In this document: positions 2-10,512 of the stretch, piece by piece
Numbering within the stretch: position 1 is the first letter of the stretch
How the letters are laid out: each line of letters starts with the position of its first letter
Assembly: GCA_005877655.1 (NCBI GenBank)
Contig: VBOC01000026.1
Location: forward strand, 1-10,512
Length of the DNA: 10,512 bases
Source of the DNA: Ignavibacteria bacterium
Lineage (GTDB): Bacteria > Bacteroidota > Ignavibacteria > UBA10030 > SZUA-254
Direction: 5' to 3'
The notes under the pieces: generated by a model
Databases searched by the model: none
What the model was told of the DNA's origin: nothing
Seen by the model: the letters and a program-made list of their open reading frames with translations, nothing else
Position numbers and translations under genes: made by a program

Positions 2-3000
2 GCTGTCACGGACCTCTTGATCAAAGGCGTTTCTGCCGGCGTCACATTCAACCTCCTCAGCGGCACCTACAATGAGCAGGTGACACTGTTTGCTCCTCCG
101 GGCGCCAGCGCCACAAACACCATCACATTCCAGTCCCAATCGGGCAATTCGGGGGATGTGAACCTGCACTATGTCGCCGGCGGTCCCAGTGACAACTATG
201 TCGTGCTGCTTGATGGCGCCGATTACATCCGTTTCCAGAACATGACAATCACCAGTAACACCACTGGCGGGGCCCCGTACTCGCGGATATTCGACCTGGT
301 CGGAGGGGTGGAAGATTTTCGGCTGATGAATAGTGTCCTGAATGGAACGGTGAACGGCACGTCCAATCAATCACAGGCCCTTGTCAATGCCGCGAGCTCG
401 CTTTACACCAGCCGCATGTTCACCGGTAACACGTTCAACGGCGGATACGCGGCGATGTACCTCTTCGGCATCAGTACCACGGCCCTTTCCTCCGGCACGC
501 AGATTTCCGGCAATGCCTTCTCCAATCAGTATTATTCGGCGGTCTATCTCATCTTTCACGATGCGCCGAAGGTGAACGGAAACACAATCACCGGCGCGAG
601 TAGCTACCCCATCTATCTCCAGAACTGCTATAATGCGCTTCAGGTTCTCAAGAATAGGGTGACAGTGGGCGGCGGCTATGGAATTTATCTCTATGCCTGC
701 AATGGGGCGCTGGCGTCGCACGGCCTTGTCGCCAATAATTTCGTCGGAATCGGGGGAACGAGCACCGCTTACGGGATCACTCTGTATGGATCGAACAATC
801 AGGATGTCTATTACAACAGTGTTAATATTACCAGCACCTATACCTACACGCGCGCCTTCGACCTGGAAGGGGGAGGCAGCACGATCAACGTGGTGGATAA
901 TATCTTCGCAAACCCGGGAGGCGGCCACGCCTACTACGTGGGGAGTACGACGGCTATCGGAACGTCTGATTATAATGATCTCGCATACTGGACGGCCGAC
1001 CGCGCGAATCTGGCTGCCCTTAAGACAGCGAGCGGCAAGGACGCTCATTCGGTCTCGACAAGCCCCGGATTCGTTTCGACCGCGGACCTTCACAGGAATA
1101 CTTCCGCGCTGGACAGTCTTGCGACGGCACTGACAAGCAAGGTACCCGATGACATCGACGGGGAACTGCGGCATCCCCCAAAAACAGATATCGGCGCGGA
1201 TGAACGGTATGCACCGGCCGCGGTCCCAACGATCTCGGTCAACAATATAAGCCAGCCCGAGGGGAATAGCGGTACGACGAATGCGATTTTCACCGCTACG
1301 TTATCCGATACAACGAGTCAGACGGTGACCGTGCACTTTGCCACCGCCAACGGGACAGCCACGGCGGGAAGCGATTATACCGCAAAATCCGGCACGCTGA
1401 CCTTCCCTCCCGGAACGCTGACCCAGAAAGACACAATTCTGATCAGCGGTGACACGCTCAACGAACCGGATGAGACGTTTTTCCTGAACCTCTCCACTCC
1501 CACGAATGCAAGCTTGGCCGACAGCCAGGGAGTTTGCACGATCCTCAACGACGATTCGCAGCCGGGTATCGCGACTGCCGACGGTTCTGCGACGGCCGGA
1601 AGCGATTATATCTCCAAATCGGGAACGATCACTTTCCCGGCCGGGACGGTCACGAAGAATGACACGATATCGGTGAGCGGCGATTTGCTTAATGAACCGG
1701 ATGAAACGTTTTTCGTCAACCTCTCCTTGCCGACGAATGCGACGCTTGTCGACAGCCAGGCGCTTGGTACGATTCTTAACGATGATGCACGGCCGACTAT
1801 TGCAATTAACAATGTCAGCGTGCTCGAAGGAAACAGCGGGACGACGAATGCCATCTTCGTTGTCAGCCTCTCCGCTGCAAGCGGTCAAACTGTCAGCGTG
1901 AATTACTCGACAGCGGACGGATCTGCGACGGCGGGAAGCGATTATATCGCCAAATCCGGGACTCTCACATTCCCGCCCGGAACGACGACCAGAAACGATA
2001 CCGTCCTGATTTATGGGGACACCGTCGTTGAGCCGAACGAATCTCTTTTTGTCAATCTCCACAATCCGGCGAATGCGGTCTTCTCCGACAGCACCGGGAT
2101 TTGCACAATCATTAATGATGATTCCGTGACGAGTGCCGGTTCCATCCAGGGCATGAAGTGGCACGACCGGAACGGCAACGGCGTCAAGGACGTTTCGGAA
2201 GAAGCCCTTGCCGGATGGCAAATTTATGCCATCTCTTCGGCGCATGACACGCTCAAGACACTGACGGATACGGGCGGCAATTATTCGTTCACGAACGTCG
2301 CTCCCGACACGTACCGGGTGGAGGAAGCTCCGCAGGCGAATTGGATTCAGACAGGAGGCGAGCCCTATTACAGGGTCGCGGTGGGCAATCAGACGGTATC
2401 GAATGTAAACTTCGGGAATTTCGTCCCGGGCGCGATCGACGGCCAGAAGTTTGCCGATAAGAACAACAACGGCGTCAAAGATCCGAGCGAAAACGGATAT
2501 CTGTACTGGAATATCTGTCTCGTGCCTCAGCAGCACCCGCGGCAGTTCGATCTCGACCGTGTTGCCGTCACGATGTCGCTCGACTTCCCGGGCATCGGCA
2601 CGCAGCAGGTGAAATTCGACGGAATCTTCGTCGATTGCCGCGGCGATTATGTCCCTGCCGGAAACCTCATCCCGACCGAATTGATCGGCCTCACCCTTCA
2701 CTCGGTTCAGCCCATTCATCTTGCGGGAGACTTTCTGGACGTGCTGGTGTCGCTCAGGGTACCCCCCGCGGGCGCGCGCTCGTTCGGCCGGATATCCGGT
2801 AACGGCACTACGTTCCCGGCCGCGAGCTTCTTCGATCTCTTCACGGAGGTGGATTTCCGCAATTATTATACCCAGACTGTCTTCAAGCATACAAATCATG
2901 TCGCGCCTATTCATCTTAAAGGAAACGTCGCAGGCATTCCGCTGGGCACCGGGACATCGTACACCGGAGGCGGCGGAATCGTCCTGAACAATGTTTCGAC

Positions 3001-4636
3001 CGGAGACATTGTGGCGACCATTCAGAGCATCGCCGTCACCCTCGGCGATTCGATATCCGCGTCGAATCCTCTCTGCGTACTCTCGGACAACCGCGGGAGA
3101 TATTCGCTTGCGCCGCTGCTTCCGGGTACATACACCGTTCGGGAGGTGCCAAAGCCCGGATGGGTTCAGACAACCCCCAACCCCGGGAACTTCGCGATTA
3201 CGAGCGGCTCGCACGTCACAGGCGTGGATTTCGGAAATTACCCCAACTTCGGGTCGATCAGCGGGGTCAAGTTCAACGACGTCAACGGCAACTGCGTGCG
3301 CGATGTCGGGGAGAGCGGTCTTCCGGGATGGTTCGTCATCATCAAGCCGCTCGGCTGGTATGGTTACACCGATCGGAACGGCGCATACATGTTCAACAAC
3401 GTTCCCGCAGGCACCTACATGCTCGCCGAGGTGAACCAGCGGAACTGGCAGCAGACATGCCCGGCGGGCGGCGAGTACACGAATATTGTCGTAGCCGGCG
3501 GCGACTCCCTCACCGGGTATAATTTCGGAAACCGCATGATCCCCAACGTTCAGGATCTGAGCGTTGACCTCTCCGCGGGCACCGCCCGTCCCGGATTTAC
3601 CAAGCACTACTCGATTGCCTATTCTAACAAGGGATCGGTGGGTGTTACGGGAGTCGTGACATTTACGCTGCCCCCCGAGGTTGTGTACCAATCGAGCTCC
3701 CCGTCAGGGGTATTCGACGCGCCGACACACACAATTACCTGGAACGTCGGCTTACTCGCTCCGTTGGCGGGTGGGTCACTCGGCGTTACGGTCCAGATCC
3801 CTCCCACCACGCCGATCGGAACAAATCTCGCGGGCTCCGCGAAGATAGAGCCGATCATCGGCGACGCATATCAGGCAAATAACACCTCGAGCGAGACCCA
3901 GCGCGTTTCAGGCTCGTTCGATCCCAACGATAAGGCGGTTTCTCCGGAAGGGGCCGGCTCGGATCACGTCGTGCGCCCGACCGATACGCTCACCTACAAG
4001 GTAAGATTCCAGAATGTGGGGAACGATACGGCGTTCAATATCGTCGTGCTCGACACGCTGGACAGCAACCTCGATCCCAACACGCTCGCACTCGGGGCGG
4101 CCAGCCATCCGTACTCGTTCCAGATCATGAATGGGCGCGAGCTCGAGTGGACGTTCAGCGACATCAACCTCGTCGACAGCCTGCACAACGAATCCGAGAG
4201 CCATGGATACTTCTGGTACTCGATCCGCCCCGATTCGGGCGTGCCGATCGGAACGGTCGTGAAGAATTCCGCCTCGGTGTATTTTGATTTCAATGCGCCG
4301 GTGCGGACAAACACGTTGAGCAACCGCCTCGACACGGTGAGTTCCGGCGTGCACGACGGGGGCCCCCTCCCGAAGAGCTACACGCTGTACCAGAATTATC
4401 CCAATCCCTTCAATCCGAGCACAACGATCCGGTACGAGCTGCCGAGAGCCTCACACGTCAGGCTATCGATTTACGATGTGCTTGGGCGCGAAGTCAAAGT
4501 CCTCGTGGAGGCTCAAATCGGCCCAGGACAACATCAAGCGACCTTCAATGCGGGCAACCTATCGAGCGGGGTCTACTTCTATCGACTCGCTGCGGGAGCC
4601 TTTGTAGAAACAAAGAAATTCCTGCTCATGAGATGA
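2..4636 (+). CDS. Giant T9SS-sorted multi-domain surface/secreted protein (5' partial)
   Basis: The frame is open to the left edge, so the true start and signal peptide lie outside; the TTG at 17 is only the first in-window start-like codon. Numbering residues from that TTG: about 1-395 resemble a right-handed parallel beta-helix (many short N/G/S-rich strands, closing with the DIGADER motif common in such proteins). About 405-704 hold Calx-beta units with TAGSDY and EPDETF motifs; the middle one is truncated. About 708-1170 hold three SdrD-B/prealbumin-like units (GxxxGxKFxDxNxNGVxD, GTYxxxE, FGN), the second interrupted by about 186 residues. About 1176-1298 are DUF11-like. About 1299-1442 match the DUF7619 type (SFDPNDK, then NSASVYFDFNAPVRTNT). 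The last 90 residues are a type IX sorting domain (YPNPFNPST, YDVLGREV, SGVYFYRL). It is probably exported and anchored or released as an adhesin or matrix protein. No enzymatic motif was recognised. The sorting domain is the surest call; the exact job is unknown. Confidence 0.93.
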   Translation, partial: AVTDLLIKGVSAGVTFNLLSGTYNEQVTLFAPPGASATNTITFQSQSGNSGDVNLHYVAGGPSDNYVVLLDGADYIRFQNMTITSNTTGGAPYSRIFDLVGGVEDFRLMNSVLNGTVNGTSNQSQALVNAASSLYTSRMFTGNTFNGGYAAMYLFGISTTALSSGTQISGNAFSNQYYSAVYLIFHDAPKVNGNTITGASSYPIYLQNCYNALQVLKNRVTVGGGYGIYLYACNGALASHGLVANNFVGIGGTSTAYGITLYGSNNQDVYYNSVNITSTYTYTRAFDLEGGGSTINVVDNIFANPGGGHAYYVGSTTAIGTSDYNDLAYWTADRANLAALKTASGKDAHSVSTSPGFVSTADLHRNTSALDSLATALTSKVPDDIDGELRHPPKTDIGADERYAPAAVPTISVNNISQPEGNSGTTNAIFTATLSDTTSQTVTVHFATANGTATAGSDYTAKSGTLTFPPGTLTQKDTILISGDTLNEPDETFFLNLSTPTNASLADSQGVCTILNDDSQPGIATADGSATAGSDYISKSGTITFPAGTVTKNDTISVSGDLLNEPDETFFVNLSLPTNATLVDSQALGTILNDDARPTIAINNVSVLEGNSGTTNAIFVVSLSAASGQTVSVNYSTADGSATAGSDYIAKSGTLTFPPGTTTRNDTVLIYGDTVVEPNESLFVNLHNPANAVFSDSTGICTIINDDSVTSAGSIQGMKWHDRNGNGVKDVSEEALAGWQIYAISSAHDTLKTLTDTGGNYSFTNVAPDTYRVEEAPQANWIQTGGEPYYRVAVGNQTVSNVNFGNFVPGAIDGQKFADKNNNGVKDPSENGYLYWNICLVPQQHPRQFDLDRVAVTMSLDFPGIGTQQVKFDGIFVDCRGDYVPAGNLIPTELIGLTLHSVQPIHLAGDFLDVLVSLRVPPAGARSFGRISGNGTTFPAASFFDLFTEVDFRNYYTQTVFKHTNHVAPIHLKGNVAGIPLGTGTSYTGGGGIVLNNVSTGDIVATIQSIAVTLGDSISASNPLCVLSDNRGRYSLAPLLPGTYTVREVPKPGWVQTTPNPGNFAITSGSHVTGVDFGNYPNFGSISGVKFNDVNGNCVRDVGESGLPGWFVIIKPLGWYGYTDRNGAYMFNNVPAGTYMLAEVNQRNWQQTCPAGGEYTNIVVAGGDSLTGYNFGNRMIPNVQDLSVDLSAGTARPGFTKHYSIAYSNKGSVGVTGVVTFTLPPEVVYQSSSPSGVFDAPTHTITWNVGLLAPLAGGSLGVTVQIPPTTPIGTNLAGSAKIEPIIGDAYQANNTSSETQRVSGSFDPNDKAVSPEGAGSDHVVRPTDTLTYKVRFQNVGNDTAFNIVVLDTLDSNLDPNTLALGAASHPYSFQIMNGRELEWTFSDINLVDSLHNESESHGYFWYSIRPDSGVPIGTVVKNSASVYFDFNAPVRTNTLSNRLDTVSSGVHDGGPLPKSYTLYQNYPNPFNPSTTIRYELPRASHVRLSIYDVLGREVKVLVEAQIGPGQHQATFNAGNLSSGVYFYRLAAGAFVETKKFLLMR
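1229..2127 (+). repeat. Tandem Calx-beta repeat block inside the surface protein
   Basis: Three direct repeats encode Calx-beta modules, which in known families are calcium-binding beta-sandwiches. Unit 1 is about 1229-1570, unit 2 about 1571-1795 and unit 3 about 1796-2127. All carry TAGSDY, KSGTxTFPxGT, EPxExxFVNL-like and TIxNDD motifs, and the DNA is clearly alike (for example near 1580-1626 and 1916-1961). Unit 2 lacks the first roughly 40 residues present in the others, so the block holds two whole modules and one partial one, with the reading frame kept. Confidence 0.8.
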
Positions 4637-4821: not shown

Positions 4822-5487
4822 TCAGAGCAATCTCTCCTTCAGCGCCTTTGCCACGGCTTCGCTTCTGCTGTGGACATGAAGCTTTGTATAGATGTTTCTG
4901 AGGTGGGTATCAACGGTATGGAAACTGACCCCGAGGTCGTGTGCAATCTGCTTCTTCGGGTTCCCCTCGACAAGCCGGTGGAGAATCTCTTTTTCTGCGT
5001 TCGTGATTTCGTAGTTCCCCTTGGGCGCTCCCATGGCTGCGAACATATCCAACAGCTTGCGCGCAATCTGAGCGTTGATCGGGGCCCCTCCTTCGAGAAT
5101 GTCCGTCAGCGACCGGATGATCTCGTCGGGCGGCGCACTCTTGAGAAGATAACCCGAGGCGCCGGCGCAAATCGCCTGAAAGATCTTGTCGCTGTCATCA
5201 AAGACGGTCAGCATGATGACCTGAATGGAGGGTGCGATGGATTTTACCTGACGTATCCCTTCGATGCCGTCCAGCCCCGGCAGGCCGATGTCCATCAGGA
5301 GGATATCGGGCGCCGCCTCGGATGAGAGGCCTGCCAGCGCCTCCTCGCATGACGAGACTGCCAGGCTGCACGCCAACCCTGCGGTTTCATTGACGAGATC
5401 TCTAATGTTATTCCTGAACCGTTCGTTGTCCTCAACCAGCCAGACATAAACCGTGTGGTCCGCGGGGTAGGGGGGGTTCTCAGACAT
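4822..5487 (-). CDS. Two-component response regulator, NarL/LuxR family (REC + HTH)
   Basis: A cytoplasmic DNA-binding regulator switched by phosphorylation. From the ATG at 5487 it is 221 residues, the usual size for the family. The receiver domain (about 12-135) shows the acidic pair E19/D20 in LVEDN, phospho-acceptor D66 in LLMDIGLPG, T94 in IMLT and K116 in YLLK, so all key receiver residues are present. The C-terminal LuxR-type helix-turn-helix (about 158-221) reads ITNAEKEIL...KKQIAHDLGVSFHTVDTHLRNIYTKL, the normal recognition-helix pattern. An in-frame GTG at 5526 would add 13 residues, but it lies inside the dyad element and adds no known domain, so the ATG is preferred. The gene follows the sensor kinase on the same strand after a 69-nt gap, so that kinase is its likely partner. 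The family call is firm; its target genes are inferred from the shared upstream element. Confidence 0.95.
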   Translation of the reverse strand: MSENPPYPADHTVYVWLVEDNERFRNNIRDLVNETAGLACSLAVSSCEEALAGLSSEAAPDILLMDIGLPGLDGIEGIRQVKSIAPSIQVIMLTVFDDSDKIFQAICAGASGYLLKSAPPDEIIRSLTDILEGGAPINAQIARKLLDMFAAMGAPKGNYEITNAEKEILHRLVEGNPKKQIAHDLGVSFHTVDTHLRNIYTKLHVHSRSEAVAKALKERLL

Positions 5488-5493
5488 AAGCTC

Positions 5494-5537
5494 AATATAT
5501 CCGAACGGCCGGTCGCCCGCAATCACGCATTTGCGGG
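5494..5537 (-). promoter_or_regulatory. Candidate operator-promoter upstream of the response regulator
   Basis: On the minus strand, a perfect 7-bp dyad CCCGCAA (5537-5531), 8-nt spacer, TTGCGGG (5522-5516) is followed by TATATT at 5499-5494. The TTG inside the right arm (5522-5520) lies 20 nt before TATATT, which fits the Bacteroidota housekeeping promoter layout (-33 TTG, -7 TAnnTT). The first 19 nt of the dyad are identical to a site upstream of the GH8 gene with the same spacing to TATATT. The dyad could also form an RNA hairpin between the kinase and regulator genes in a shared transcript. Confidence 0.5.
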
Positions 5538-5556
5538 AATAGAGAATTTCCGCCCC

Positions 5557-8500
5557 TCATAGCCTCCCTGAAAACCTCACCGATGTTCCTTTACCCGGCT
5601 GCGACGTTATCTCGAACTCACCGCGGAGATTGCTTGCGCGGTTCTTTAAGCTGCCAAGACCGTTCCCGCGGCGAACGGCGCCGGCCGAAGACCGATCGAA
5701 TCCGCATCCATTATCGTGAATAACCGTTTCGAGCATCCCATCCTTGTGCTGAACCTGAATCTGCACCCTGGTCGCCGAGGCATGCTTCACAATGTTGGTG
5801 AGAATTTCCTTGAATGCGAGAAAAAAGTTCCTTTTGAAGTCGATCGTCACCTTCATGGAGTTCTCGTTCCTGGATGTTTCAAAGTCGTGTCCGATGTCGC
5901 CGAGCAGAGCCGAAGCCGTGTCCTTCATCCGGAGCAGCAGGTCGTCAAGAGTGTCGTTTCTGGGCTTGATGAACCAGACGATATCCTTCATGCCTTCGGA
6001 GGTGGTCACGGCCGTGTCATAAATCTCCGCGAGCTTGCCTTTCGTCGCCGCGCTCAATTCCGGAGCATGCTGGACGGCTCTGCTCACGATCGCAATCGCG
6101 CTGAGATTGCTGCCCACATCGTCGTGCAGGTCGTCGGCGATGCGAAGTCTCAGACGCTCGACTTCGAGGAGCCTTCTAAGCCGGTACCGGTATGCCGCGT
6201 AGATTGCTCCTCCGGCAAGCCCCGCGGCGATGATGCGAAACCACCAGCTCTGCCAGTAAGGGGGCGTGATGATGATCGTGACCGCCGTACCCGCCTCGTT
6301 CCACACGTTATCGCTGTTGCATCCTTTCACCTGAAACACGTAACTGCCGGGATTAACATTTGTGTAGCTTGCATAATTGCGCGTTCCGGCGTCAATCCAT
6401 TGCTTGTCCACCCCATCCATTCTATAGAAGAATCGGTTCCGCGTCGGATTGGCGTAATCGAGGGCGGCGAAGGAAAATGAAAGAAAGTTCTGATCATGGG
6501 CGAGCCTGATTTGCCCGGTGTTGATGAGATCAGTCGAAAAGTCTTTGCCCGAGACCGAGAAGGAGGTGATCACAATCTCCGGAGGACGGGAGGCCGTAAA
6601 TACGCTTTCGGGGGTGAACTCCGTGAAGCCGTCGAGCCCTCCGACGAAGAACGTACCGCGCGCACTCTCGTAGAACCCGGAGAGTAATTCGGTGAAGGGC
6701 ATCCCGTCGTCCTTGTCGTATCTCACGAAGGCCCCGGTCTTCGGGCTGAATCTCCCCAGTCCGATGCTTGTCGACAACCACAGGTCGCCCGCCCAATCGG
6801 GGGCGATTCCGAAAATGTGCGCTTCATAGAATTGATCGAGCGCGTGCCGGGTAAACGCTCCGGTTCCGGGGTCAAATGATACGAGCCCTGCACGCGTGCT
6901 GAGCCAGAGCAGGCCGTTGCGGTCCCGGGTAAAGGAATAGATCCAGTTCTCTGCGCTTCCGGAGGAGTCCCCCGGAGAAAGAAATCGGGTGAGCGTGCCC
7001 CCGGCGGCTATCCTGACGAGTCCTCGTCCGGCCGTTGCTACCCAGTGATTTGAGCCCTGGTCTTCGAGAATATCGTAAACTCGCTTGCCCCCGTCAGGGT
7101 GGGCGTCTGCGGGATTATCGAGATAGTTCTTGAACCGGTCCGGCGAACCTGGCTCGCGCTTCACCGGAGGCGGGGCCAGTTCAGACAACCCCCCATCTGT
7201 GCACACCCAGATCGAGCCCGAATGATCCTCATAGATTCGACCGATATGATCACCGGCCAGACTTGTCGAATCCCGGTCCCGGTGTCTGTCGATAGCTACC
7301 ACGTTCCGCTGTTTGTCGAGGATCGCGAGCCCGTTCGCGGTTCCCACCCATAGATTACCGCCAGGGTCTTCAATCACGGGCCCAACATCGTTGTTCGGCA
7401 GCGTGAAAGGGTTCGAGGGGTCATTCTGGAAATTCGCGACTCGCCGGTACGCCCCCCGAATGCGCCGGAGCCCATCCAATCCACCCCCCCATAATCCTGC
7501 CCAAAGCATTCCTTCCCGGTCTTCGCGCAACGAGAGCACGGCACCCCGCCCGAGTTGGAGTGAATCCCGAAAACGGATATGGTTGGCGAAAGGGTTCTTC
7601 GAGAGCAGCATCTTGTTGACACCGCTCCGCGTGCCGGTCCAAAGCAGAAGTTCCCGCGCGTTCGTTGCGACCGGGTCCGGATACAAGACTCCGATCGCAC
7701 CCAATGATCGTTCGACATCGCTCAACGTCGAAAATTGCTCGAAGGATCCATGCTGGCAGGCAAGAAGCCCGAGATCTGAAGCCCCGATCCACATTCTGTC
7801 TGTGGCATCTTTCGCTATGGCTACAACGGTGTGCTGAATATACGAATGAAGATCCAAGCGCCGGATGCGTCCCGTGGACTCCTCGAGGACGTCGAGACCG
7901 CCGTGGGATCCGACCCATATTTCCCCGCTGTCACTCTCACAGAGCGCGGTGATGTCATCCGACTGCAGGGAAGTGCGATCTGACGGGTCAGCGCGATATG
8001 AGGAGATACGTGAAGTCGTCACGTCGAGAACATTGAGTCCGGAGACCGTTCCAATCCACAAATCTCCCCGGCGATCGGTGAGAAGTGCCGTTATCGTGTT
8101 GTTGCTCAGCCCATCGCTCGTGGCGTAGCGCCGCAGCGCCCGGGTGATGCGGTTACAGCCGAACAGCCCCTGGGAGGCCGTGCCGATCCAGATTGTGCCC
8201 CTGCCGTCTTCGACGACGGCGTTAATCCGGTCCTCGGAGAATTGGGTGCCGGCGAGAAACGGCACAGATTGTTCCGTCCGGAGATCGAAAGTCAAGAGCC
8301 CTTTTCCGGTGGCCAGCAGGAGGGAACTCTCGGCCAACCTGATCATCGAAGTCACCAACCGATGCTGGGGGTCCGCGGGGGTTCCGGAAAGGAGGACCTG
8401 TATCCGGTAACCGTCGTACTTGCACAGACCGGTGGACGTTCCAAACCAGAGAAAGCCGCGCTCATCCCGGATGATAGCGTTGATCCTGCCGAAGTTCGGG

Positions 8501-8628
8501 GTGGCGATGTGCTCAAATCTGATCAGATACTTGTCGAGGGGCGGGAGCCGGGGTGGCTGCGTACGTGCGGGCTGCGAGAGGAGAAAAAGTGCGAAGATGG
8601 TATGAAGGAGCCCGGACCAAAAATGCAT
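5557..8628 (-). CDS. Sensor histidine kinase with periplasmic Reg_prop propellers and Y_Y_Y domain
   Basis: An inner-membrane sensor that should autophosphorylate and pass phosphate to the regulator encoded next to it. From the ATG at 8628 it is 1023 residues: a signal-like hydrophobic stretch (about 7-19); then 14 Reg_prop blades (about 45-675) carrying D/E-xxG-xLW-x-GT-xxGL motifs, two of them degenerate (near 104 and 661), which fits two seven-bladed propellers. A Y_Y_Y domain follows (about 682-792, FFYRMDGVDKQW, NPGSYVFQVK), then one transmembrane helix (about 795-813). HisKA_3 carries H835 in DDLHDDVGSNLS. HATPase_c shows N945 (NIVKHA), D972 in DNGCGFD and a GNGLGSL lid. Unlike hybrid (HTCS) relatives it has no receiver or AraC domain of its own; those roles fall to the separate regulator. 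An in-frame GTG at 8661 would add 11 residues; the ATG gives a more usual signal peptide. The ligand is unknown; related propeller sensors in Bacteroidota often bind oligosaccharides. Confidence 0.95.
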   Translation of the reverse strand: MHFWSGLLHTIFALFLLSQPARTQPPRLPPLDKYLIRFEHIATPNFGRINAIIRDERGFLWFGTSTGLCKYDGYRIQVLLSGTPADPQHRLVTSMIRLAESSLLLATGKGLLTFDLRTEQSVPFLAGTQFSEDRINAVVEDGRGTIWIGTASQGLFGCNRITRALRRYATSDGLSNNTITALLTDRRGDLWIGTVSGLNVLDVTTSRISSYRADPSDRTSLQSDDITALCESDSGEIWVGSHGGLDVLEESTGRIRRLDLHSYIQHTVVAIAKDATDRMWIGASDLGLLACQHGSFEQFSTLSDVERSLGAIGVLYPDPVATNARELLLWTGTRSGVNKMLLSKNPFANHIRFRDSLQLGRGAVLSLREDREGMLWAGLWGGGLDGLRRIRGAYRRVANFQNDPSNPFTLPNNDVGPVIEDPGGNLWVGTANGLAILDKQRNVVAIDRHRDRDSTSLAGDHIGRIYEDHSGSIWVCTDGGLSELAPPPVKREPGSPDRFKNYLDNPADAHPDGGKRVYDILEDQGSNHWVATAGRGLVRIAAGGTLTRFLSPGDSSGSAENWIYSFTRDRNGLLWLSTRAGLVSFDPGTGAFTRHALDQFYEAHIFGIAPDWAGDLWLSTSIGLGRFSPKTGAFVRYDKDDGMPFTELLSGFYESARGTFFVGGLDGFTEFTPESVFTASRPPEIVITSFSVSGKDFSTDLINTGQIRLAHDQNFLSFSFAALDYANPTRNRFFYRMDGVDKQWIDAGTRNYASYTNVNPGSYVFQVKGCNSDNVWNEAGTAVTIIITPPYWQSWWFRIIAAGLAGGAIYAAYRYRLRRLLEVERLRLRIADDLHDDVGSNLSAIAIVSRAVQHAPELSAATKGKLAEIYDTAVTTSEGMKDIVWFIKPRNDTLDDLLLRMKDTASALLGDIGHDFETSRNENSMKVTIDFKRNFFLAFKEILTNIVKHASATRVQIQVQHKDGMLETVIHDNGCGFDRSSAGAVRRGNGLGSLKNRASNLRGEFEITSQPGKGTSVRFSGRL

Positions 8629-8691
8629 GATGTGAAATGGAATCAAGTTCGGGACCACCACGCAAACCGGCGAGAAGGTTCGCGTTTGCCC

Positions 8692-8722: not shown

Positions 8723-8730
8723 CTACCTCG

Positions 8731-8774
8731 CCCGCAAATGCGTGATTGCCGGAGGCATCCGGCGAGATTATATT
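8731..8774 (+). promoter_or_regulatory. Candidate operator-promoter upstream of the GH8 gene
   Basis: CCCGCAAATGCGTGATTGC at 8731-8749 continues as CGG, giving the dyad CCCGCAA-N8-TTGCCGG with one mismatch; it matches the site before the response regulator at 21 of 22 positions. TATATT follows at 8769-8774, with the same 19-nt gap as in the other copy, and the TTG of the right arm (8746-8748) is 20 nt before it. If TATATT is the -10/-7 box, the dyad centre is near -40, the usual place for a class II activator. A second hairpin (GCCGGA 8748-8753 / TCCGGC 8758-8763) lies between the two parts and is not shared. Confidence 0.5.
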
Positions 8775-8845
8775 CTGACCTCCTACCACTTGACATTTCC
8801 GCTAAAGTTCGCATTATTTCTGCTCGAGATATGAGCAAGAAAGAA

Positions 8846-8859: not shown

Positions 8860-8934
8860 ATGCTGAAGATCTTGTTGGCCGAAAAGGTTCGGGAGGCTCT
8901 CCTCTTGCGCAGGAGGAAAGGCAATGCGGCATAA
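8860..8934 (+). CDS. Small upstream ORF (24 aa), possibly a leader peptide coupled to the GH8 gene
   Basis: The frame starts with ATG at 8860 after a well-spaced AGGAAGG and runs 24 codons to TAA at 8932-8934. The product begins MLKILLAEKVREALLLRRRK, a short amphipathic, very basic peptide with no domain I recognise. Its stop overlaps the ATG of the GH8 gene as TAATG, the classic arrangement for translational re-initiation. The AGGAGG inside its last codons (8911-8916) is 17 nt from the GH8 ATG, longer than optimal, so coupling may be how the enzyme gene is translated. It could be a real small protein, a pure coupling device, or a chance frame; only the ribosome site and the overlap argue for it. 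Confidence 0.4.
   Translation: MLKILLAEKVREALLLRRRKGNAA
8911..8916 (+). promoter_or_regulatory. AGGAGG Shine-Dalgarno with ambiguous target start
   Basis: A consensus AGGAGG lies 7 nt before an ATG at 8924 (wrong frame for the enzyme, frame ends at 9109) and 17 nt before the enzyme's ATG at 8934. It lies inside the leader ORF. It probably assists the GH8 start, but the spacing is odd. Confidence 0.4.
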
Positions 8935-10512
8935 TGAGAAGAAGAGCATTGGAGAGTCCTGTCCGTCTGTTCGTAGCATCGCTTATTCTCGCCCTTCTGC
9001 TGGTGTGCGCCGCACTCGCCCAGTCGCCACGGAGGCCGTTCCCACAACATACTGTGTACGCAGACGGCGCGATCAAACCGAGCAACATCACGCAGGCAGC
9101 GTTGGATGATTCGGTCCGCTCGTACTACGACCGGTGGAAAGCAGGGTATCTCGTTGCCGCATGCACTCCGAATCAATATTATATATCCGGCGGGACGGAT
9201 ATCCCGGACGGGATCAGCGTCTCTGAAGGGCAGGGATACGGATTCCTGATTACCGCCTTCATGGCCGGCTATGACCCGAATGCGCAAACATATTTCGACG
9301 GTTTGTATAATTATTACCGCGCCCATCCGAGCGAGATTAACCACGACCTGATGGCATGGAAACAGCTTACGGGCTGCGTCAGCAGTTCCGACAGCAATTC
9401 GGCGTCCGACGGCGATCTCGATATGGCCTACGGGCTTTTGCTTGCCGACAAACAATGGGGAAGCGCCGGCGCGGTCAACTACTTTCAGGCGGCACTGCGT
9501 ATCATCAACGCCATCCGGGCGGATGAAATCAATCCCGGGACGTTCGCGGTCAAGCTCGGCGACTGGGCGATCCCGGGCGATCAGAGGTACGACGATACCC
9601 GGACGTCCGATTTCCTCGTCAATCATTTCCGCGCATTTGAAATTGCCACCGGCGATACCTCGTGGCGAAGCGTTCTGAATCGCTGCTACTCGCTCGTGGA
9701 TGCGATGCAAACAAATTTCAGCCCTGCGACGGGCTTGATTCCCGATTTCATACGGCATGTCAGCACGAGCCCGGCGCCCGCTGGCCCTCACTACCTGGAA
9801 TCTGCTTATGACGGACACTATTCCTACAACGCCTGCCGCGATCCGTTCCGTCTGGCCGTCGATTATCTTGTCTCGGGAGAGGCGCGGGCCTACGGTGCCG
9901 TCAAGAAGATGAACGGGTTCATCCGGGCAAAGACCGGGGACAACCCCGAGAATATCCGGGCCGGTTACCGGCTCAACGGCGCCACCATCGACACGTTTGA
10001 TATCTCGATGGCATTCATCGCCCCGTTTGCCGTCGGGGCTATGATTGATTCCGGGAACCGGCCGTGGCTGAACAAGCTGTGGACAACTGTCGATACGACA
10101 AACTTCAACAGCAACGATTACTACGGCAATACCTTGAAGATGCTGGCGATGATCGTCCTTTCAGGGAATTGGTGGAATCCGCAGCCGGTTCTCCCCTCGC
10201 CCGCGGCCCCCGCGCTCATTGCTCCGCCGAATTCTTCCGTTGTGCAGAGTTCCCCCGCCATGTTCCGGTGGCGCGCTTCTTCGGAGAGCACATCGTATTC
10301 GATCGAGTGCGCCTCGGATTCGCTCTTCCGCGTGTTGGTGCTCAACGACTCGTTGCTTGCGGACACGAGCCGCCAGTTCGGCGGAATGACAAACAACACA
10401 ACCTACTATTGGCGCGTGCGCGCAAGAAATGCCGGCGGCTCGAGCGCATGGTCCGGGGTGTGGCGATTCACCTATCTGAATCCCGCAACGTGGAAATTAA
10501 TCTCGGTACCGC
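8934..10512 (+). CDS. Secreted glycoside hydrolase family 8 enzyme with C-terminal FN3-like domain (3' partial)
   Basis: The frame runs from ATG 8934 off the right edge (526 codons seen). Residues 1-30 are a clear signal peptide (MRRR, hydrophobic VASLILALLLV, CAALA then QS). Residues about 45-412 are a GH8 (alpha/alpha)6-barrel: SEGQGYGFLITAFMAGYD with the likely catalytic acid E98, and SASDGDLDMAYGLLLADKQWG with D159/D161/D163. YNACRDPFRLAVDYL (298-312) has Asn at 299 where cellulase-type GH8 enzymes have the catalytic base Asp; E289 in HYLES is a possible replacement base. Residues about 424-515 look like a fibronectin-III-type module (TTYYWRVRARNAGGSSAWS). GH8 enzymes cut beta-1,4 glucans, xylan, chitosan or mixed-linkage glucan by inversion; the substrate cannot be fixed here. 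A sorting domain probably follows outside the window. The start is chosen from the signal peptide and the TAATG overlap with the leader ORF. Confidence 0.93.
   Translation, partial: MRRRALESPVRLFVASLILALLLVCAALAQSPRRPFPQHTVYADGAIKPSNITQAALDDSVRSYYDRWKAGYLVAACTPNQYYISGGTDIPDGISVSEGQGYGFLITAFMAGYDPNAQTYFDGLYNYYRAHPSEINHDLMAWKQLTGCVSSSDSNSASDGDLDMAYGLLLADKQWGSAGAVNYFQAALRIINAIRADEINPGTFAVKLGDWAIPGDQRYDDTRTSDFLVNHFRAFEIATGDTSWRSVLNRCYSLVDAMQTNFSPATGLIPDFIRHVSTSPAPAGPHYLESAYDGHYSYNACRDPFRLAVDYLVSGEARAYGAVKKMNGFIRAKTGDNPENIRAGYRLNGATIDTFDISMAFIAPFAVGAMIDSGNRPWLNKLWTTVDTTNFNSNDYYGNTLKMLAMIVLSGNWWNPQPVLPSPAAPALIAPPNSSVVQSSPAMFRWRASSESTSYSIECASDSLFRVLVLNDSLLADTSRQFGGMTNNTTYYWRVRARNAGGSSAWSGVWRFTYLNPATWKLISVP

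Follow-up and report, generated by a model that had tools for sequence, protein, structure and literature searches.

Both autoregulation and propeller kinases are known in general, and the sensors of hybrid two-component systems (HTCS), whose output domain is of the AraC type, also carry Reg_prop and Y_Y_Y domains. Operators of the 7-2-7 type, in which two inverted heptamers flank a 2-bp centre, are already known for NarL: an engineered NarL site is TACCCCTAAAGGGGTA, and napF carries a 7-2-7 site at −40 to −49 (PMC4549865). Here we describe a candidate operator of this type in a 10,512-nucleotide stretch of DNA from an Ignavibacteria bacterium (assembly GCA_005877655.1, contig VBOC01000026.1; the whole stretch is referred to as the window). 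The element lies within 5494–5538, immediately before a response regulator gene, and judging from its sequence and that of its relatives it is, with high likelihood, the operator of the NarL/FixJ-type regulator which that gene encodes (4822–5487, minus strand).

Results

The initial annotation had reported one 19-mer twice in the window, at 5537–5519 on the minus strand and at 8731–8749 on the plus strand, with TATATT starting 20 nt past it in both cases (5499–5494 and 8769–8774, respectively), and both copies and both boxes were found as described. In the source genome (2,528,317 bases in 255 contigs, 79% complete), the 19-mer occurs at six places with up to three mismatches, and a reversed control pattern at none. 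Five of these places, with 0, 0, 0, 1 and 2 mismatches, are the two window copies, C167:6670 (+), C153:8735 (−) and C153:8844 (+), and at all five TATWTT begins exactly at nucleotide 20 after the 19-mer (TATATT at four, TATTTT at one). The sixth place (C206, three mismatches) has no TATWTT box at that distance. Since three of the five sites lie beyond the two from which the spacing had been proposed, the fixed spacing is confirmed on new data. The bases between operator and −10 box are variable, as had been noted: by eye, the 19-nt spacers have no evident similarity.

The five sites precede the response regulator gene, the divergent gene for a secreted GH8-family protein, a gene on C167 for a 1244-aa propeller-like protein, and two C153 genes standing back to back, one for a propeller-like protein of 1491 aa and the other for a protein whose start resembles a signal peptide. 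This placement, together with the fixed TATWTT distance, strongly supports the earlier proposal of two co-regulated promoters. Of the target set then put forward, the regulator and GH8 genes are retained, and its limitation to those two is given up, as three further promoters carry the site. The C167 and C153a target proteins have type IX secretion system (T9SS) sorting domains above the NCBIfam cut-off; the C-terminus of the GH8 protein, where a T9SS tail would be sought, is out of view because the gene is cut by the contig end.

The dyad originally drawn, CCCGCAA-N8-TTGCSGG, is not conserved, its outer right arm reading GGG and CGG in the window and GCA, CTA and CAA at the other three sites. 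It was also rejected as a search pattern, giving 74 strand-matches genome-wide at two mismatches compared with 36 for the reversed control, with three of the five true sites breaking the dyad. The consensus of the five sites is instead [TG]CCCGCR-AA-YGCGTGA with TTG directly after it, which fits a NarL-type 7-2-7 inverted repeat abutting the TTG of the −33 region. Before the regulator gene, the putative operator reads TCCCGCA-AA-TGCGTGA (5523–5538, minus strand; six of seven arm pairs, scan p 0.005), and before the GH8 gene GCCCGCA-AA-TGCGTGA (8730–8745, plus strand). The assignment draws on arm pairing and on the C153b copy, in which both inner arms are altered together (CGCA-AA-TGCG to CGCG-AA-CGCG). 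The TTG at 5520–5522 (minus strand) and at 8746–8748 (plus strand), first assigned to the dyad's second half, fits better as the −33/−35 element of each promoter, and TATATT as the −10/−7 element; the box at 5494–5499 ends 6 nt before the ATG. These elements of the window sites fit the Bacteroides promoter consensus of −33 TTTG and −7 TAnnTTTG (PMC7366714), an article that reports the −33 motif as not found in Flavobacterium. With the TATATT box taken as −12 to −7, the centre of the repeat falls near −43.5, which revises the earlier estimate of −40.

To place the exact spelling among relatives, the 19-mer with TATWTT was searched for in 100 genomes (the source and 99 relatives). Matches occur in three, so that this spelling is rare: the source genome (five), G005 of the same family (one mismatch) and G028 of the same order (three mismatches). 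The copy in G005 (G005:C108), another genus, has a different spacer and lies 246 nt before a gene for an 893-aa protein with a signal-peptide-like start. The G028 match was not counted, having no ATG-started open reading frame (ORF) of 100 codons within 400 nt. A relaxed pattern, GCGTGATTG-N20-TATWTT with two mismatches, gave 13 places beyond the five in the source genome. Two of them (C200 and C212, one mismatch) were not counted as regulon members, as only 0/7 and 2/7 of their arm positions pair. The remaining 11 have two mismatches; two of them closely follow the sister regulators C123 and C138, and the one after C123 does not match C123's own operator (agreement at 10 of 17 positions).

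The regions upstream of sister regulators were scanned for a 7-2-7 dyad followed by TTG, N18–20 and TAWNTT, with 200 dinucleotide shuffles as reference. The family set comprised the 46 closest regulators (all matches to E 1.4e-41) from 15 genomes of the family, 45 of which were long enough to score; the group tally of the scan script places one generic regulator among the 46. Sites were found at p ≤ 0.01 in 21/45 and at p ≤ 0.05 in 25/45, and 22 of these 25 have a 19-nt spacer after TTGN. Generic NarL-type regulators of the same genome gave 0/8 and 1/8 at the same thresholds. The layout was replicated in other families, where the 60 highest-scoring regulators among the matches listed gave 21/60 and 28/60, with a 19-nt spacer in 26 of the 28. 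Control genes, namely 73 ORFs of at least 200 codons from the same loci (minus the regulator and same-strand genes up to 1500 nt after it; 100 shuffles), gave 1/73 and 2/73. Among 80 distant relatives, 79 of which were scored, 10 had a site at p ≤ 0.01 and 18 at p ≤ 0.05. One of those 10 (L125) has the same site as G053:C206 of the other-family set and another (L194) is actinobacterial; the rest include Chitinophaga (two), Flavihumibacter and Emticicia, and Roseivirga follows at 0.02.

For the automatic set, sites were called at p ≤ 0.05 in the family and at p ≤ 0.06 elsewhere. Of the 56 called sites, among them that of the window, 52 have an ORF of 150 aa or more on the same strand, ending no more than 260 nt 5′ of the regulator match; nine of these 52 ORFs were scanned, and Reg_prop and HATPase_c were detected in all nine and Y_Y_Y in eight. 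An in-frame ATG is present at 52/56 called sites, and at 27 of these 52 no more than 12 nt separate it from the −10 box, so many regulator messages should be nearly leaderless.

Operator spelling varies among the regulators, and is common to orthologues and some relatives. A set of 38 operators was compiled, 33 taken from the scan whatever their p value and five read by hand; left out of the 46 were seven without a site by eye and one that was too short. For 17 of the 38, the best second copy in the operator's own locus outranks all other loci. Among 55 automatically called operators, the own locus ranks first for 16 and in the top two for 23, ranks that are lowered because orthologues share operators and contigs end, and the summed own-locus score is 1049, compared with a permuted mean of 890 (standard deviation 8.8, maximum 926; 5000 permutations). 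Second copies on the same strand that match at 13 or more of 17 bases begin 4–367 nt past the end of the regulator match in 36 of 39 cases, and at 473, 995 and 1867 nt in the others. In the window and in G001:C59 the second copy is on the other strand, 5′ of the kinase and facing away, and in G007:C164 it is on the other strand 3.3 kb 5′ of the regulator. The C138 operator, TCACACG-NN-CGTGTKA, occurs in its genome with no more than one mismatch only at its own two places; at two mismatches there are 13 further strand-matches, compared with 5 for the reversed control (up to 2).

A T9SS sorting tail is present in 15 of 18 cargo proteins scanned (the C167 and C153a targets included), a rate that is not unbiased because the proteins were picked after their C-termini had been viewed. 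The 18 are two targets of this operator and 16 of the 36 second-copy genes, all complete ORFs. At a further locus, L200 (G009:C40), three tandem private operators, 70 bp apart, lie after the regulator and before a gene with a signal-peptide-like start.

The operator bases covary with residues of the recognition helix. The first variable helix residue aligns with a lysine of NarL that we take to be K188, and in the 38-pair set it shares 1.03 bits with half-site position 5, compared with 0.35 when shuffled (p 0.001). At called sites, regulators with Asp at this position have G at position 5 (G5) in both arms in 14/14 cases, and those without Asp in 0/41. The other-family part, called after the pattern had emerged, gives 10/10 and 0/20 (Fisher 3e-8), and in the distant genomes G5 is found for both of two further Asp regulators. 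His at residue 188 goes with C5 in 5/5 (not exclusively), and Asn with A in 3/4. Of the 163 alignment columns, that of residue 189 (column +1) comes out on top for half-site positions 1 and 2; this residue is presumably the counterpart of RcsB S184. Ala at residue 189 goes with TAG in 5/5, and Phe with C at position 1 in 8/8. Base contacts of RcsB are described as made via K180 and S184 (PMC5829831).

On balance, we lean towards a helix code for NarL/FixJ-type regulators, in which residue 188 sets base 5 (Asp for G, His for C, Asn mostly for A, Arg mostly for A or T) and residue 189 sets bases 1–3 (Thr mostly TAC, Ala TAG, Asn mostly TGA, Phe C at base 1). The lineage would then be a natural library of insulated modules, each with a propeller kinase, a NarL-type regulator, a private 7-2-7 operator and exported cargo, and operators and regulons would be predictable from protein sequence alone.

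Several observations weigh against these readings. No site at p ≤ 0.01 was found for 24/45 sister regulators of the family and 39/60 of other families, and for some operators, such as those of C123, G005:C219 and G002:C15, the own locus holds no convincing second copy. Only called sites enter the Asp count, and of the 20 Asp regulators in the other-family set, 10 had such a site. For half-site position 5, columns −15 and −1 reach z 18.9 and 14.2, compared with 13.9 for residue 188, their excess information for this position being below that of residue 188. At positions 4 and 6 the top-scoring columns are located mainly in the receiver and none belongs to the recognition helix; as z there reaches 10.9, common ancestry by itself yields considerable scores. 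On a tree built from the receiver domain only, there are two changes of Asp and two of G5, which coincide on the tree as drawn (the Asp group, and a nested Asp-to-Asn change with G to A), and His and Phe-189 show three changes each. As the tree shows too few residue changes, the Fisher values overstate independence. Well-supported branches provide one or two independent pairs per trait, in which the base differs in the same direction or not at all, never in the opposite one, and the sign tests on these pairs fall short of significance, the changes being too few to give power. Activation and repression cannot be told apart from sequence, and both binding and expression are predictions.

The regulator gene (4822–5487, minus strand; ATG at 5487 taken as start, not GTG at 5526) encodes a receiver and a GerE/LuxR-type helix-turn-helix domain (Pfam Response_reg 9.6e-21, GerE 4.9e-16), and its sequence relatives in PDB include VraR and NarL. 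It is not a NarL orthologue (NCBIfam NarL equivalog, 110.8 bits vs a cut-off of 250) and not PorX (T9SS_RR_PorX, 44.6 bits vs 300). Beside it, 5557–8661 (minus strand) encodes a predicted sensor histidine kinase with propeller (Reg_prop), Y_Y_Y, HisKA_3 and HATPase_c domains; kinase and regulator are separate ORFs, and the system is therefore not a hybrid one. The GH8 gene (8934–10512, plus strand) encodes a putative secreted protein with fn3 and a signal-peptide-like N-terminus (by eye), and runs off the contig.

Several further features of these genes were observed. A 24-codon ORF (ATGCTGAAG...) at 8860–8934 has TAATGA at its end, which overlaps the GH8 start codon or abuts it, and could be a translationally coupled leader peptide. 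On the minus strand, TATAAT and an ATGTCA hexamer (8767–8796) overlap the GH8 −10 box; if this TATAAT belongs to a kinase promoter, the start of the kinase would be followed closely by the operator, which could then block that promoter. The second C153 gene (L058, about 9000–9140, plus strand) has an early in-frame TAG, and may therefore be broken or mis-sequenced. By eye, a stretch W-[NK]-[LIM]-[ILV]-S-[LV] is common to targets of this operator and of a same-genus relative, with examples TWKLISVP, GWNLVSVP, GWNIISLP and GWNMLSVQ in the window (10480–10511), L057, L058 and L195. Convergent with the regulator gene, window positions 2–4636 encode a 1544-aa protein (5′ end off the contig) with Calx-beta, SdrD_B, DUF11 and a T9SS tail.

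Discussion

The proposal that the site is bound by the regulator encoded here is strongly supported by the layout of sister promoters, the repeated operators and the covariation of helix and bases; because sister operators track helix residues, the regulator very probably binds this site. Sequence and covariation also support binding to inverted heptamers with a 2-bp centre, and the operator position suggests activation and autoregulation. In the mechanism we envisage, a signal sensed by the Reg_prop/Y_Y_Y kinase would lead to phosphorylation of the regulator, whose dimer would bind the repeat beside the −33 element and contact RNA polymerase from a class-II-like position. The bound regulator would switch on its own gene, as positive feedback, and the genes for exported proteins. 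Because the kinase gene lies upstream of the internal promoter, this feedback would raise the regulator alone, without the kinase. The window system would be one of many parallel modules in the lineage, each with kinase, regulator, private operator and exported cargo, and as operator divergence went along with changes in two recognition-helix residues, cross-talk between sister systems would not be expected.

As to the direction of the effect, the chief competing reading is that the regulator binds and represses both its own gene and the GH8 gene. The operator adjoins TTG, so a bound dimer could block polymerase, and NarL represses frdA from sites near the transcription start (PMC4549865); however, a centre near −43.5 resembles the 7-2-7 site of napF (−40 to −49), which is NarL-activated (PMC4549865), and we consider repression unlikely. 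Alternatively, the whole block could be a long −35/−10 promoter of an extracytoplasmic function (ECF) sigma factor, with no operator. The constant distance between block and −10 box at all five sites is compatible with this, and T9SS genes of Porphyromonas are described as being under the ECF factor SigP. We regard it as improbable, as the variable part is a 7-2-7 inverted repeat with a symmetric change in both arms of one copy, its letters differ from regulator to regulator and track helix residues, and TTG and TAnnTT show little variation and agree with the housekeeping consensus.

There is very little room for a dispersed repeat or a recent promoter duplication without regulatory meaning. 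Although the core is identical over 18–19 bases at four of the five sites, there are only five copies, all 5′ of genes, the spacers are dissimilar even though the −10 box is kept, and the motif recurs with a different spacer in another genus (G005:C108). The conservation of operator and −10 box between dissimilar spacers agrees with the original argument for selection on promoters rather than plain duplication. An RNA stem-loop (attenuator or terminator) in place of a DNA site seems equally far-fetched: the regulator-side copy can form a 7-bp stem, and the GH8-side fold has z −2.27, with 6/200 shuffles as good or better, but the element is located 5′ of the −10 box, the fold on the regulator side is unremarkable (z −0.89; 34/200 shuffles fold as well), the GH8 copy forms a different fold and not the same stem, and an Rfam scan of the window gave no match.

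A literature search, mostly of titles and abstracts and with subscription journals thinly covered, found no description of this operator family, of parallel modules with private operators before type IX cargo, or of the residue-to-base relation. It has long been asked how sister transcription factors acquire new DNA specificities while avoiding cross-talk. Here the operator lies next to the gene and often recurs ahead of the cargo, so that nature provides regulators and sites as ready-made pairs, on which a residue-to-base code for the large NarL/FixJ family can be tested directly. Such a code would assign regulons to unstudied two-component systems, and propeller kinases would be linked to how individual proteins exported by the type IX system are controlled. 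Named Bacteroidota records that are not metagenome-assembled genomes (Chitinophaga, Flavihumibacter and Emticicia, p 0.01; Roseivirga, 0.02) contain sites with this layout and allow testing.

Like Escherichia coli NarL, the regulator has a receiver and a DNA-binding output domain, and its proposed site has inverted heptamers round a 2-bp centre; two sister operators nearly spell the NarL site, TACCCTG-AA-CGGGGTA closely resembling TACCCCTAAAGGGGTA. NarL is described as a single nitrate regulator with a single heptamer consensus (PMC4549865), whereas here there are many sister regulators, whose heptamers differ and which have a site ahead of their own gene and often another ahead of secreted cargo. 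In the Bacteroides HTCS described in PMC11253607 kinase and regulator are fused, whereas here each has its own gene and a further promoter lies between the two. PorXY-SigP likewise ties two-component control to the type IX secretion pathway, but is described as acting on genes for secretion components, partly via a sigma factor; the targets proposed here are individual exported proteins, and the regulator has a GerE DNA-binding domain of its own. As in family-wide protein–DNA correlation studies such as that of MerR (PMC5045206), residue–base correlations across a regulator family serve to locate contacts. That article names MerR, NrtR, Rex, LacI and TetR, with LuxR and NarL not occurring in its main text, and unlike the MerR case, the family described here supplies its own operator labels through the sites beside its regulator genes.
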